DNA from: Picocystis sp. L7
Lineage: Eukaryota > Chlorophyta > Picocystophyceae > Picocystales > Picocystaceae
Direction of reading: 5' to 3'
Assembly (NCBI GenBank): GCA_020975725.1
Contig: QXJR01000008.1
Location: 434,001 to 498,000, forward strand
DNA: 64,000 nucleotides
The notes beneath the pieces are model-generated. The model had not been told where the DNA came from. It was given only the letters and a program-made list of their open reading frames with translations, and made no database searches. Made by a program: the position numbers and the translations under genes. This document shows positions 903 to 7,326 of the stretch, one piece after another; position 1 is the stretch's first letter, and each line of letters begins with the position of its first letter.

Positions 903-2404
903 TTACGAAGTGGGCGCACCCTGGCGACGGCGCAGCTCAGGAGACGCGTGTGCCAACACCGTCAAGCGATGGAGGATGGAACGGTAGTTCTCCACCTCGC
1001 GATGGGCGTCGCGGTTGTGAGGCTGGAGCTCCAACACACGCTTGAAGTCCCGCTCGGCGCTCTCTGCGTCGCCTAGGCCTTCCTCGGCCCTGGCGCGACG
1101 GTACAAGGCTTTCAAGGTGATGTCGTCTGACCGGCCTGTGCGAAGGATGCGGTTGCAGTCGTGGATGGCCTGCGTCCACATCTTCCGCTTCAACCAACAC
1201 TGCGCACGGTTGCACAAGACCACGCACAAATCGCCGGAAGGATCGGCGTCCTCGTCCTCTTCCTCTCCGAGCGTGAGCATCTCGATGGCACGCGTGTAGG
1301 CCTCACATGCCTCCCGAAACCGACCGTAAGCGTACTCGCGATTGCCACGCTGCTTGTAGAGGGATGCACGTTCACGTATGTCTCTCAAGGTGTCGTCTGC
1401 ACCATCCACGCCTGTTCCCTCCGGAACCGCCGTTCGCTTCCCTTTCTTGGACACGTCCGTCTCGAATTGGTACCTCGCCACGACCGACAGGTCCAGACAT
1501 TTGCTCGTGTACCACCAGTGCTTCGGCACACAAAGGCAGTCTCCAGGTCCCAGCACAACCACGTGTGGTTGGGCTGCACAGGTCCGAGGGAAGCTCGTCA
1601 AGTCCGGCCTGAAAGGATCGTACAAGCTCTGCAAATCGTGGGTCTCGTTGCCGTAAATGGAACTGGCGTCCTCTGGAGCGTACAACACGTACTGCGTCCT
1701 ACCCGCGAGCTGGCAGAAGCAAACCTCTGTCTCTCCGAGGCCGTGCAGCCTCACTTCGCTTCCAGCGGGTCCGACTTCCAGGTACGAGCACTGAGGATCC
1801 ACAAAAGCGGGACCACGTGGAACGTCCAGCGGGCTCCAGCATTTCTTCAACTCTTTTCTGTTGGAGAAGGGACGCCACTCGTGCGCTTGGAAGGGGAGGC
1901 TGCTTTCTCCTTGGAAGGAGGAGATCAAGCTTTCTTCTCCTGCGCAGTAACCCAGAAAGTCTCGTGCACGCAGCTTGAGTTTCTGCGCTCCGCTCCCGTC
2001 GCTTGACCTGTATGGTCTCGTGTTCATGCACACGATTTCCTGCTCGCCGAAGGCTTCTACGAGGCGCTTCAGGTCTCCATTTCCTCGATCGATCCAATCT
2101 TTCGCATACCCGACGATCACTACCGGTTCGTGCTCTTCCGTCCCGATCTCTTCTTTTCCCTCGCCTCCTCCTTCCCATTCGTATCCTGACTTCTTCACCG
2201 GTCTCGCCTGGTTGATCCGCACCGCTTGGTTCTGTCCTTCCCGTTCTTCGCCGTAGAGCCGTGCCTGCACGCGTGTCCTTCGTCAGCGGCGGTCCCGACC
2301 TCGTCCTCGCCTGCACCTCCCTACCTTCTCACCTTTTCCTCCAATTTCTTCCTGCAGAAGTCCGTGCACACGTGGTGCGGGTTCGAAGCGTTGGCGCACG
2401 CCAT
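903..2404 (-). CDS. JmjC-like (cupin_8) domain protein with C-terminal TPR repeats
   Basis: The C-terminal frame 903-2207 has no ATG near its start. Continuity suggests a first exon at 2333-2404 (24 codons, begins MACANASNPHH) and a 125-nt intron (2208-2332, GTGAGA...CAG), giving about 458 residues. Residues ~50-270 look like a cupin_8/JmjC fold of the HSPBAP1/FIH type, with the order PVVIVGYAKDW, YLEVGP, FCQLAGRTQYVLYAPE, LGPGDCLCVPKHWW. Residues ~285-420 form TPR repeats such as KQRGNREYAYGRFREACEAY. The usual HxD...H iron ligands are not evident: LHGLGE replaces LHxD, and WWYTS lacks the distal His. It may therefore be a non-catalytic reader or protein-binding domain. It is head-to-head with the exonuclease gene about 106 bp away. 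The first exon is inferred. Confidence 0.7.
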
Positions 2405-2510
2405 CCGTCCCAGCTGGAAATCGCGTCGGTTTCCATCAGGATCCCCGACGAAGCCGAACCGACGCCGAGACCGCTGTCTTTGCTGTCCTTTCCCGGTCCA
2501 AACGCGGTCC

Positions 2511-4451
2511 ATGAAAGATCGCGAAAAGACAGCGGTCTTCACGGGAATCGACGGTCCTTCGAAGGGAGGGGAGGGGGCTGCACCACGTGTCGAAGGTACG
2601 GTTCGGACCTGGCAGCAAGCACACACCTCCATGCGCGCCACACCAGGTGCCAAGCGAATGCTGCAGATCCACAAGGGACACCTCGTGTGCACGTGGATGC
2701 GAGAGAGAAACCTGGGTGCCGAAGCAGCGAAGGAAGGGAGGCTGCCTGCTTCGGATCTCGTGCGTCCCGCACCAGCCCAGGACGGCAAGCGAGAAACGGA
2801 TCCAGAGAGAAACAAACCACGGAGTGAAAGGAGATCGAGCCCGTCCGAAACGACAGAGGAAGGTCGAAACACCGTGGAAGAGTTCCTGGAAAGGATCTAT
2901 ACCTCCTTCTGCAAGTCAGGAGCGCGTTATCCCGAACTTCGACGAAGGTTCTTGCAACGGCTGGACCAAGTGGAGGAACCGCAGGCTTTCTTGGGTGCAA
3001 GCCTCCGCTGCCTGGCCAACAAGAACCGCATCGTCGATGGGAATACCGATCCTGGAGTTCTGCAAGGGAAGGTGCACACGCTCATCCATCTGGTGCTGGA
3101 TGCCGTTCGGCAGCAGTTCACGAAAGAAGTCGGAAATTCCGAGAAGGATCAGGATCTGAGCCCGCTTACATACACGGGGGGATCCGAGCTGCGAGCAGTC
3201 GCGAAGGACCTCTTCCTAGGAACGCTGAATGGGAAGATTATCCTCGAGCCAAGATTGGTCGCGAAACTAGTTCGATACTTTGACCTGGTGCAGGAAGATG
3301 TGTTGGTGGCCGTTCCCCGGGAGCGAATCAGTGGATATGTGCAAGATTTGCTGGAGAAACAGGCATGCACACCTGCCATTATCTTAGTACGTTGCTTAGA
3401 ATTATCCGAATTTTTGAACATGGAAACACTCAAAGTGCTCGTCGAGTCGTCGTACCAGAACATTGCGCTGGAACTTATCGGCCACACCAAGAAGCAAACA
3501 CAAGTCGAATTTATCCAGAACCTTCTGACACAAGGAAGATATAAGCTGGCTTGGAAATGCGTCAAAATGTTGCAGTTGGAGGAGGACTTTCCGGATGTAT
3601 TTCGGCTGTACAATATATCATGCATCCGCAGGTATTCCGGGAAAGGGTACTGGGAAGGGGCCGTTTTGGTTGCTGGGGAAGACGAAGGTCTGCAGGAATT
3701 GGTCATCGATGAAATGATCGCGGTCGGGGAGTTGGCGCTTGCCAAGGAGCATTGTGATTTGTTTGGAATTGAAGACAAGATTCCGGGTGATGTGGATTTA
3801 GCGGCCATGCAAGCTAAGCAAAGGGCAAAGTACCTGCATGTTGACGACTTTAGGGTAGCAGTGAGTTTTGTTGACAATCTTTCTGGTGTGAGAGAAGCAG
3901 TTGAAGTACTGAGCAATGCAGATATTGTTGGATTGGACGTTGAATGGAAAGCGGAGGTGGACAAGCAGGATGAAAGAGGTGCTAGCTTGCTGCAGCTGTC
4001 AACGGAAAGTCATGCCTTTGTGCTTGATGCAGCAATGCTTTGCCGCGAAGAGTCCAGATCATGGATGGAAATAAATGATTTGTTGACCCCATTGTTTGCA
4101 ACTTCGCCGTGCATGCTTCTTGGATTTGATCTTGCCACCGACCTGAAAGTGCTTGCAAGGTCGTTTCCCCAGATGGATTGCTTTAAGAGAGTGTGTGGTT
4201 CTCTGGATTTGCAGAAAGTGTGGAAGCGCCTAGGTCCAGGCAATGAACTAAGCAGTTTGAGCAAGCTTTGTGAGTTGCACCTTGGGAAACCTCTGGACAA
4301 GCGTGTCAGAATGTCCAACTGGGAGCGGCGCCCTTTGAGTAACTCGCAGCTCCATTATGCTGCCTTAGATGCTCAATGTTTGATACCCTTGTACAGAAGT
4401 TTAAAGGGACTACCTAATTTCGAGGTGGTGGCGCGCGAAATTTATCGGTGA
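2511..4451 (+). CDS. DEDDy-family 3'-5' exonuclease domain protein (EXD/mut-7-like)
   Basis: The protein has about 646 residues if the ATG at 2511 is used; ATGs at 2630 and 2659 are alternatives. Residues ~460-630 are a DnaQ-like 3'-5' exonuclease (WRN/EXD type). GLDVEWK supplies the first acidic pair (D476, E478), GFDLATDL the second motif, and HYAALDAQ gives the Tyr/Asp of the DEDDy class. The long helical N-terminal region (~100-440) resembles the N-terminal part of mut-7/EXD3 proteins, which act in small-RNA or RNA 3'-end processing; the substrate here is unknown. The extreme N-terminus is basic and low in complexity. An AATAAA lies at 4516-4521. The gene is tail-to-tail with the selenoprotein candidate. 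Confidence 0.85.
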   Translation: MKDREKTAVFTGIDGPSKGGEGAAPRVEGTVRTWQQAHTSMRATPGAKRMLQIHKGHLVCTWMRERNLGAEAAKEGRLPASDLVRPAPAQDGKRETDPERNKPRSERRSSPSETTEEGRNTVEEFLERIYTSFCKSGARYPELRRRFLQRLDQVEEPQAFLGASLRCLANKNRIVDGNTDPGVLQGKVHTLIHLVLDAVRQQFTKEVGNSEKDQDLSPLTYTGGSELRAVAKDLFLGTLNGKIILEPRLVAKLVRYFDLVQEDVLVAVPRERISGYVQDLLEKQACTPAIILVRCLELSEFLNMETLKVLVESSYQNIALELIGHTKKQTQVEFIQNLLTQGRYKLAWKCVKMLQLEEDFPDVFRLYNISCIRRYSGKGYWEGAVLVAGEDEGLQELVIDEMIAVGELALAKEHCDLFGIEDKIPGDVDLAAMQAKQRAKYLHVDDFRVAVSFVDNLSGVREAVEVLSNADIVGLDVEWKAEVDKQDERGASLLQLSTESHAFVLDAAMLCREESRSWMEINDLLTPLFATSPCMLLGFDLATDLKVLARSFPQMDCFKRVCGSLDLQKVWKRLGPGNELSSLSKLCELHLGKPLDKRVRMSNWERRPLSNSQLHYAALDAQCLIPLYRSLKGLPNFEVVAREIYR

Positions 4452-4593
4452 CATAGACAACAAAAATAAGTTCTATTGACTACTGTATGCTTCCTCGGTT
4501 GATTGCACAAGAACAAATAAACGTAACTCTTTTGGTATTTTCTCTACACTTGACCACGAGAGCATCACAATCCCCTCACCCACAGCAGGATAT

Positions 4594-4642
4594 TCGGAAC
4601 CACCCCATGCGTTATGTACGTATTTTCAGGATGGATCGTCAT
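4594..4642 (-). promoter_or_regulatory. Candidate form-2 SECIS element (core)
   Basis: Read on the minus strand, 57 nt past the TAA of the upstream-lying gene. The 5' side has ATGA (4642-4639). A ~10-bp helix follows, pairing GATCCATCC with GGTGGTTC and neighbouring Gs, with one U-U mismatch and one G-U pair. Next come an unpaired AAAA (4626-4623), a mini-stem CGT/ACG with loop ACATA, the return strand, and CGA closing the non-Watson-Crick quartet (GA at 4595-4594). Flanking GCAGC/GCTGT can form helix I. Twelve nt separate ATGA from the AAAA, within the known eukaryotic SECIS range. Folding was done by eye. Confidence 0.7.
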
Positions 4643-4698
4643 GGCTGCATGCAAGTATGTAGGACATCCGTTGCTCCGAACAAAGAGGTTGATCCCCT

Positions 4699-5319
4699 TT
4701 AACCTACGGGTAGGACACAGAAGATCGCTGTGATGGCCATGCCAATCACAAAGACCCTTCCGTTGAGTTTGTTCACCTTATCCAAGATAGCTTTGGCAAC
4801 GGATTCGTCCTCGATCTCCTGTAGCCCGGTCCCGTCCACGTCCCAGATGCCCGCCTGGGCTATGTTTCATAAACCAGTCCTTCCCGAGTCGATGAATCCC
4901 AGTGATAGGGAAAGCGGAAAGTAGATCGCTGCTCTCCAATAATTGGGGACACCGGTGACGAGCAGCGCGGCTGCCAACACAACGGTCGAGGCAAGTCCCA
5001 CTTGTCCGACCTTCATCCGCCGTCCACGTTCGTCCAGGTCGATGTTCGTGAGCTCCTGGGTCGCTTTTTCGATTCTCTTTCGTCTTTCGTCCTCGTCTGG
5101 CACATTGCTTGCATCCACGTCTTGCTGGAACACGCCGTACACGATTTTCTTGTTGGATCCTGGTGAAAACATCTCCTTGAACTTGGTCGCGAATTCGGTC
5201 TCTTTCCAGCTCGGTTTCGGATCAGGAGGGCCACCTTGTCCGGTGGCTCGCACCTTGACCTCTTTCCTCCTCGCCTGTGCGGCTTTGGGCCGTGCAAGCG
5301 ACACGCAGCCGGTGCGCAT
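4699..5319 (-). CDS. Probable plastid membrane selenoprotein (UGA recoded as Sec)
   Basis: From the ATG at 5319 the frame runs 150 codons to a UGA (4869-4867). It continues open in the same frame for 55 more codons to TAA (4701-4699), giving 206 residues with Sec at 151. Residues 1-28 look like a chloroplast transit peptide. Residues 104-123 and ~128-145 are hydrophobic segments. After the UGA comes NIAQAGIWDVDGTGLQEIED, then a third membrane segment (~186-204, NGRVFVIGMAITAIFCVLP). The part after the UGA is too protein-like, including a membrane helix, to be 3' UTR. A SECIS-like stem-loop follows at 4642-4594. I cannot name the family; algal membrane selenoproteins (MSP) are known as a class, but identity is not claimed. 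An intron removing the UGA is unlikely because there is no splice-site pair around it. It is head-to-head with the CtpA gene. Confidence 0.78.
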
Positions 5320-5610
5320 CGCAGGTGTCGGTCTGAGGACGTGGACACGTCTCACGTGGGTGTGAGCATCGATCCACCCCTTCCTATCGAAAGGGACGGT
5401 CCTTTCAAAGCCTTCCATACAGACCCAGAAGGGATCCCAACAGACCGGATGTACGTCCAGGGAGACCCGACGGGCAGGTGGACGAGCCACCCCTGAAGAA
5501 CGAGACCTTGGGAAAGGAACCGTCGTCTCCTTTTGGAAAGGGATCCTGTCCGTTTGTAGAAGGGAGGATCACCTGGGACACGTCCTTCCTTCAGCGCAGG
5601 GACGTTCGTG

Positions 5611-7326
5611 ATGACAGCTTGGAAGGCGACGCGCCACGCGCGCGGAAAGGAAAGCAACGCATCCCGAAAGAAGGAATGGTGGAGGTGGGATGGGGAAACG
5701 TTCGATGGAGGGCGTCTTCACAAGCGAGACAAGCTGGGAAGACGAGGAACGAGAGAAGCGGTGCGTCGAGTCGTGCACCAACAGGCGAGGAAGTGGGGAG
5801 AAGCTCCCAGACGCCTGATGTGTGCAGCGGTCGCTACTTGTGCGCTTTGGACAGTGCCCATGGACCTCGCACCTCCCTCGGATGCTTCCATGGATACAGA
5901 GATGATGGACCAAATGCTGGATGTGGTCCTCAGACAGAGGGAGAACCTGTACACCCCCGATGCAACCCAGGCCCTGCAGTATCTCAAGGAGTACGAAAAA
6001 ATTGTGGAGAAAAACGAAACAGTGGAAGAAACGTGCGAGGATTGCGAAGATCATCGTAGATTTGTGGAGCGAGCATGGCAAGTGGTTAGCAACGAGTTCT
6101 TTTCTCCCCGAGCAGAATTCAAACAGTCAGAATGGGCACGTCTGCTGGTTGAAGTCATCCGCAGCAAACAGGTCATCAAAAGCAGGGCAGAAGCCTATGC
6201 TACTGTTTCTAGCATGGTGGAATCTCTTGGGGATGGCTACAGTCAGTTTTTACCTCCAGCTGAGTATCGAAGGGTGACTCGGAGGTCACGTCCAGAGGAA
6301 CGATCATACTTGTCTGCAATGCTCGTAGGTGTGGGCATTGAAGTTGGAAGCAGAAACAACGAAGGATACCTGCAAGTGGTTGCTCCACTTGCTTCGTCGC
6401 CCGCTGAGGAGGCAGGCATTCAACCGGGGGATTTGCTACTGTCTGTTGACGACTTTCCGACCACTGCACTCTCGAAGGACGAAGTCCTGGCAGTTTTGCG
6501 TGGCCCGTCCGGTTCCATCATCAAGGCAGACGTGAGAGATGTACAGGGTATCACACGCACAGTGGAGTTGGAAAGAAGACGGCTACCCCAACCCCCATTA
6601 GATCTGCACTTCCTTGATGCAGAAAGAGGCCGGGAAATCGCATATATAAGGCTGAGATATTTCTCCTCCAGTGCTAGTAAGGAACTGGAGAAGGCGCTGA
6701 AAGAAAGTGAGTATCGTGGGGTTGATGCTCTTGTGGTGGATTTGAGGAACAATCCTGGCGGCACATTTGAGGAGGCCATTGCTGATGCAGCTCTGTTCTT
6801 GGAGAACAAATACAGCATTGTGAGCACAGTCCGAAACTACGCAGACAACGAACCGCTCAGAAAAAATCCACATGCCATTTCAAATTTGAGCGTGTCTAGG
6901 AGGCTAAATGTCAAGGATAATGAGTACTATGTAGGTGCCCAGAAGATTTCCAATCTTACACAGGTGCCGATCGCTCTGATTCTGAACAAAGGAAGTGCCA
7001 GTGGAAGCGAGGTGCTGGCTGGCGCTTTGCATGACCACCATCGAGCCAAAATCATCGGTGAAAAGTCTTTCGGTAAGGGAGTTATCCAGTACTTCTTCCC
7101 ATTGGGAGACGGCAGCGGGCTGAAGTTAACTGTCGCAAAATATGTAACTCCAGCCGGGCATGATATCTCTTTGGAGGGTGGGCTCGAACCGGATTTTTCC
7201 TGCAAAGACTATCCACACAAGCTTCCTGAGGAAAAGTTCATACGGTTGGATAGGACAGAAAGCAGGCCAAAGAACAAGCCGATACTGGACAAATGTGTTT
7301 TGTTGGCATCTACTTTGGCGAGGTAA
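5611..7326 (+). CDS. ctpA: Carboxyl-terminal processing peptidase of photosystem II D1 (CtpA type)
   Basis: About 571 residues. It is an S41 peptidase that cleaves the C-terminal extension of precursor D1 in the thylakoid lumen, which is needed for assembly of the manganese cluster. Residues 1-67 are basic like a plastid transit peptide. RRLMCAAVATCALWTVPMDL (68-86) resembles a lumenal targeting segment ending near APPSDA. A PDZ domain spans ~237-325 (VGIEV...AGIQPGDLLLSVD). The Ser/Lys dyad is recognisable: S464 in NKGSASGSE and K489 in GEKSFGKG, 25 residues apart as in the Scenedesmus D1 protease. The region between targeting signal and PDZ matches the usual helical A domain. The start was chosen at the first ATG (5611), the only one giving a full bipartite leader. 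Confidence 0.93.
   Translation: MTAWKATRHARGKESNASRKKEWWRWDGETFDGGRLHKRDKLGRRGTREAVRRVVHQQARKWGEAPRRLMCAAVATCALWTVPMDLAPPSDASMDTEMMDQMLDVVLRQRENLYTPDATQALQYLKEYEKIVEKNETVEETCEDCEDHRRFVERAWQVVSNEFFSPRAEFKQSEWARLLVEVIRSKQVIKSRAEAYATVSSMVESLGDGYSQFLPPAEYRRVTRRSRPEERSYLSAMLVGVGIEVGSRNNEGYLQVVAPLASSPAEEAGIQPGDLLLSVDDFPTTALSKDEVLAVLRGPSGSIIKADVRDVQGITRTVELERRRLPQPPLDLHFLDAERGREIAYIRLRYFSSSASKELEKALKESEYRGVDALVVDLRNNPGGTFEEAIADAALFLENKYSIVSTVRNYADNEPLRKNPHAISNLSVSRRLNVKDNEYYVGAQKISNLTQVPIALILNKGSASGSEVLAGALHDHHRAKIIGEKSFGKGVIQYFFPLGDGSGLKLTVAKYVTPAGHDISLEGGLEPDFSCKDYPHKLPEEKFIRLDRTESRPKNKPILDKCVLLASTLAR

Follow-up and report, generated by a model that had tools for sequence, protein, structure and literature searches.

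The window, the whole 64,000-nucleotide stretch of Picocystis sp. L7 DNA that was analysed, in all likelihood encodes a 206-residue membrane selenoprotein, probably of the plastid, in which the UGA at 4869-4867 is decoded as selenocysteine via a SECIS candidate at 4651-4579 and a single Sec/Cys would form the redox-active site. In the proposed mechanism this 3′ UTR element, together with the tRNA-Sec, SepSecS and eEFSec that the genome encodes, would allow the UGA to be read as Sec. Import would most likely be into the plastid, and about three helices would hold the protein in the membrane. Sec151 would sit where the second of these ends; the short helix and the WDVDGxG loop that come next would make up the family's conserved core. 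The single Sec/Cys would act as a redox-active selenol or thiol at the membrane edge and would need an external partner, which may be glutathione, thioredoxin or a second subunit.

Reading frame, relatives and the in-frame UGA

The features of the locus, in positions of the window, are as follows.

4699..5319, minus strand: coding frame of 206 residues with Sec at 151, from ATG 5319-5317 to TAA 4701-4699
5245..5319, minus strand: likely plastid transit peptide, the first ~25 residues, basic and ending VKVRAT
4954..5037, minus strand: first membrane helix, predicted at 95-122, overlapping the hydrophobic stretch 107-125
4876..4923, minus strand: second membrane helix, predicted at 133-148, ending just before Sec151
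4867..4869, minus strand: in-frame UGA (4869-4867), codon 151 and the sole UGA in the frame, candidate selenocysteine
4702..4866, minus strand: 55 sense codons past the UGA, with the conserved block NIAQAG-WDVDG-G and a C-terminal membrane stretch
4714..4806, minus strand: third membrane helix, predicted as a long helix at 172-202, overlapping the hydrophobic stretch 187-206
4579..4651, minus strand: SECIS candidate of form 2, with helix I, ATGA 4642-4639, helix II, apical GAAA 4627-4624, a mini-stem and CGA 4596-4594

An earlier, sequence-only reading had described a frame from the ATG at 5319 to the TAA at 4699 that is split by the UGA, with 55 codons past it encoding a conserved-looking block and a membrane helix. 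Both the coordinates and the codon count are correct, and the codons past the UGA align with relatives of the protein. Two further in-frame starts lie upstream on the minus strand (ATG 5418 and GTG 5490); the ATG at 5319 is preferred because the alignment with P0003, the closest relative, starts close to this methionine. The gene is presumably nuclear. Its GC3 is 0.71 past the UGA and 0.64 before it, versus 0.39 in the 3′ flank (99 triplets). The divergent neighbour (window 5608-7326, plus strand) resembles by eye a C-terminal processing peptidase with a PDZ domain.

A search with the whole 206-residue protein (P0001) retrieved the window's own shortened gene model (P0002) and P0003, which aligns to 73% of the query with 83% identity. 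Both end in ...GRTGL, one residue before the UGA. When residues 138-206 were used as the query, P0004 (58%) and P0005 (51%) were found, both running through the site. A profile made of P0001, P0004 and trimmed P0005 (alignment A2) gave at least 28 relatives at E≤0.1 among the best 8000 candidates scored. Nine of the 28 relatives listed have Cys at column 151 (P0005, P0009-P0015 and P0029), in agreement with the earlier suggestion that relatives may carry Cys there. Another 13 end exactly before this column (P0002, P0003, P0017 and P0019-P0028), five have Trp (P0004, P0007, P0008, P0016 and P0018, all with JGI as their source) and one, the nr gene model P0006 from Pavlovales sp. CCMP2436, is devoid of eight residues at the site. 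For further comparison an alignment of 25 rows (A3) was used, comprising P0001 and 24 of the 28 relatives; P0002, as the window's own model, and the near-copies P0021, P0023 and P0024 were omitted.

The residues past the site contain the motif (C/U)NIAQxGxWDVDGxG, the longest near-invariant stretch observed. In A3, tabulated over positions 141-189, N152, A154, Q155 and G157 are present in all 15 covering rows, and WDVDG (159-163) and G165 in all 16, and I169, A175, L179, V182, N183 and N186 are likewise invariant wherever they are covered (15 or 16 of the 25 rows). The same invariance is seen in the three-row alignment A2. Apart from the Sec/Cys site, the near-invariant columns hold no Cys.

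This conservation bears directly on the reading of the UGA as a genuine stop codon, according to which translation would yield 150 residues and the homology further on would be a read-through tail or a remnant in decay. Such a reading would account for the 13 relatives whose database models halt at this position, but it is very improbable, as the longest near-invariant stretch lies in the tail and is intact and in frame in the Cys relatives, the GC3 of the tail is coding-like, and a SECIS candidate follows the tail in a genome that contains tRNA-Sec, SepSecS and eEFSec. Since the block past the UGA is the longest near-invariant stretch, the gene models ending at the site very probably represent shortened selenoproteins, from which this conserved stretch has been lost. 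Relatives that end at the UGA or fail to align past it had been named beforehand as evidence against selenocysteine. The former do occur, and are best explained by truncation at the UGA; alignment past the UGA is found in 15 of the 25 rows of A3, P0001 included.

The five Trp residues could be taken to mean that the UGA is read by programmed read-through as another residue, Trp or Arg, instead of Sec. JGI pipelines are able to call genes with translation table 4, in which UGA encodes Trp, and all five Trp rows are JGI calls. One of these, P0007, shares 175 of the 183 residues that precede the site with P0026, which ends there; because of this near-copy, the Trp in P0007 is best read as a UGA translated under table 4. 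With the JGI Trp rows set aside, all nine listed relatives that have a residue at the column have Cys, and a SECIS candidate is present, which leaves insertion of a residue other than Sec highly improbable. The simplest reading of these protein models is that the relatives that end or show Trp at the site have a UGA there.

An assembly error, or an intron spanning the UGA, appears to be similarly improbable. The gene model P0006, without the eight residues at the site, is what an intron would produce, but models from different branches of the tree are interrupted at one and the same point, the residues that would be lost to such an intron are retained in the Cys relatives, and the window has at the site a GT...AG stretch of 20 nt, a length that would disrupt the frame. 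The gap in P0006 probably stems from a spurious intron that was introduced to bypass the UGA.

In a tree of 22 members, built on the core region including the columns around the site and with P0014 as a long branch, Cys (8) and non-Cys (14) rows are interleaved such that five changes are needed, compared to 6.7 on average for shuffled labels. The starred branches force at least two changes at the Sec/Cys column. The interleaved Sec and Cys members provide natural pairs for testing what Sec adds to the protein.

SECIS candidate and selenocysteine-decoding machinery

The order of elements noticed earlier past the TAA, corresponding to a form-2 SECIS, is present as ATGA, GAAA, mini-stem and CGA, with 11 nt between ATGA and GAAA. 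A cmscan of positions 4300-4900 matches Rfam SECIS_1 to 4651-4579 on the minus strand with 25.0 bits (E 0.016), a score below the curated Rfam cut-off of 35 bits. Folding of the isolated 81-nt element yields helix I, an internal loop with ATGA and CGA, helix II and an apical mini-stem. The folding energy is not unusual relative to shuffled sequences (z 0.01), which is also the case for the SECIS of thioredoxin reductase (TrxR; z -0.49). The stem has an energy of -11.1 kcal/mol, compared to -10.8 to -20.8 kcal/mol for the hits beside other selenoprotein genes, one of which is weaker. The stop codon of the convergent neighbour (window 2226-4451, plus strand), which by eye resembles a 3′-5′ exonuclease-domain protein, lies about 130 bases beyond the SECIS.

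A scan of both strands of the window for the pattern ATGA-N11-[GCA]AAA followed by a stem and NGA, drawn up after the candidate had been seen, gave four matches, among which the candidate alone has at least nine stem pairs. In 20 Markov control sequences of 64 kb the same scan gave 39 matches, two of them with at least nine stem pairs. The spacing in the pattern is shared by the SECIS elements of the TrxR, GPx, SelT-like, SelW-like and MSP-like genes.

These elements were located by a whole-genome search with SECIS_1 (E≤10) and a cmscan of 12 loci. The genome search, in which 133 of 230 first-look candidates were scored, gave at least four matches, of 32.9, 25.8, 25.5 and 25.0 bits, the candidate being the lowest listed. 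At least two further hits are known outside this list, which is therefore incomplete and leaves the rarity of SECIS_1 in the genome unproven. The three higher matches lie 3′ of a TrxR gene ending in GC-UGA-G (...GCUG; 32.9 bits), of a SelT-like frame with CTSU (Rdx match L054; 25.8 bits) and of an MSP-like membrane protein with two UGA codons (L009; 25.5 bits). The cmscan added a hit of 30.1 bits after a Sec-GPx gene and one of 26.1 bits after a SelW-like gene. Four further loci among the 12 scanned, with GPx or SelW-like matches that contain a UGA, had no SECIS_1 hit downstream. Each of the six distinct hits adjoins a gene with an in-frame UGA, all six score below the cut-off, and all share ATGA, 11 nt and then GAAA or CAAA.

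The machinery for decoding is found in the same genome, as the sequence-only reading had proposed to check. A tRNA-Sec, the absence of which would have spoken against selenocysteine, is present on the same contig as the window (76.2 bits, cut-off 47). SepSecS matches with 377.5 bits, and eEFSec is represented by a 587-residue frame, whose two PDB hits at E≤1e-50 both belong to eEFSec (421 and 420 bits). The genome comprises 20.5 Mb in 30 contigs and contains 18 chlorophyll a/b-binding matches; for the one tested, the best hits are the LHCI-2 and LHCI-11 chains of PDB entry 9vfj, followed by chlorophyll a-b binding proteins. These matches point to an alga that harvests light in the green-type manner.

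UGA codons also occur in other selenoprotein-type genes of this genome. Four of the six GPx matches have an in-frame UGA, with the site ASEUGLT in the three examined, and two of the three Rdx matches have a UGA, the third being part of the SelT-like gene. A cluster of GPx genes (G000:C15:307697-313359; L046, L047, L048 and L050) has an in-frame UGA at the catalytic position in three members and Cys in the fourth, forming natural Sec/Cys pairs. In the MSP-like L009 (G000:C24, ~185268-185335), the two in-frame UGA codons are found at GSUCWP and, near the C-terminus, at NLUV.

Predicted membrane topology and possible function

The AlphaFold2 model of P0001, built on A3, has a mean pLDDT of 78.9 and a pTM of 0.64, and is continuous through the site, with pLDDT values of 80-97 for the blocks in 71-206. 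Helices are predicted at 95-122, 133-148, 152-156 and 172-202, with Sec151 located between the second and the third of these. The earlier placement of Sec151 just past a membrane helix is matched by the predicted helix 133-148, for which the hydropathy of P0001 is below threshold. Among the four members tested, the hydropathy of the stretch near 133-148 exceeds the threshold in P0004, P0009 and P0014, and falls under it in P0001. In P0009 the threshold is passed at two places, neither of them at the C-terminus.

The first 70 residues of the model have low pLDDT values (44-67), as would be expected for a transit peptide and linker. Several relatives open with a hydrophobic stretch followed by A-F (by eye: GIGAF in P0007, GIAAF in P0008 and ISAF in P0012), a pattern similar to the motif for plastid import in algae whose plastids are secondary. 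Because of the transit-peptide-like N-terminus and the A-F motifs in relatives, a plastid location is considered most likely.

With respect to function, an outside partner is proposed because no second Cys is found in the near-invariant columns. The sequences suggest either that a thiol from outside, or another subunit, resolves the selenol, or that the site carries sulfur or selenium, as might be suspected around YgaP. The chances of a thiol-redox or peroxide role are put at about even, and a role in sulfur or selenium handling is a distinctly less probable option. A more elaborate proposal, which is speculative and rather unlikely as a whole, is that these proteins are algal plastid membrane selenoproteins descended from a YgaP-type domain, in which the Cys at the end of helix 2 was replaced by Sec, with more than one Sec/Cys switch, and which would handle reactive sulfur or selenium, or peroxide, at the plastid membrane beside the metal-binding-like WDVDGxG loop. 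A selenol at the probable plastid membrane edge would, if confirmed, present a concrete target for explaining why many algae need selenium.

Comparison with known families

No Pfam or NCBIfam family scores above its cut-off for P0001 or the relatives searched, and a structure comparison of the model gave no match above the common range. Family PF11127 (YgaP-like_TM, DUF2892) does not match P0001; its best match to a member, P0015, scores 13.0 bits (cut-off 25.3, E 0.12). The same genome carries a PF11127 gene at 38.7 bits, which indicates that the model works here and that the Sec151 protein is not a plain member of this family. A small YgaP-like (DUF2892) membrane protein with a TGICPP motif was observed (L055, 1492-1758). 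Upon alignment with hhalign of 20 family cores to seven YgaP-type domains, the Cys of the latter falls on the Sec/Cys column (P 0.037, probability 1.4%), and nine of 300 column shuffles score as high. In both groups a Cys of the membrane domain lies close to where helix 2 ends, but the match between them is not significant, and the Sec151 family differs by the additional WDVDG block and a further helix. As a lead, a connection between the Sec/Cys site and the Cys in the membrane domain of bacterial YgaP is weak. For YgaP, an export of thiocyanate has been hypothesized, according to the available text of PMC4730233.

MSP, described in the available text of PMC2375036 as an algal membrane selenoprotein with two Sec residues, resembles the Sec151 protein in being an algal membrane selenoprotein, with a function that is likewise unassigned. 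Identity with MSP is not supported: one UGA is present here versus two Sec in MSP, and the best BLASTP match to the MSP-like L009 of the same genome has an E-value of 0.27. L009 is called MSP-like solely on account of its two UGA codons, following the two-Sec statement in the same text.

According to that text, the four new selenoproteins of O. tauri are MSP and three hypothetical proteins, the latter named there without description. The available text of PMC7539508 lists 42 families of algal eukaryotic selenoproteins; it describes none as a plastid membrane protein with UNIAQxGxWDVDG, and names one family 'Hypo' without description. The part of PMC6627142 that was available does not mention the Sec151 family, and a literature search of accessible article texts, which included plastid selenoproteins, retrieved no paper describing it. 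The Sec151 family may be the same as one of the undescribed 'hypothetical' families of the earlier algal lists. It is rated here as a new selenoprotein family with a known decoding mechanism. With the algal selenoproteins in the available text of PMC7539508 it shares the in-frame UGA, the SECIS, the tRNA-Sec machinery and the occurrence of Cys homologues.
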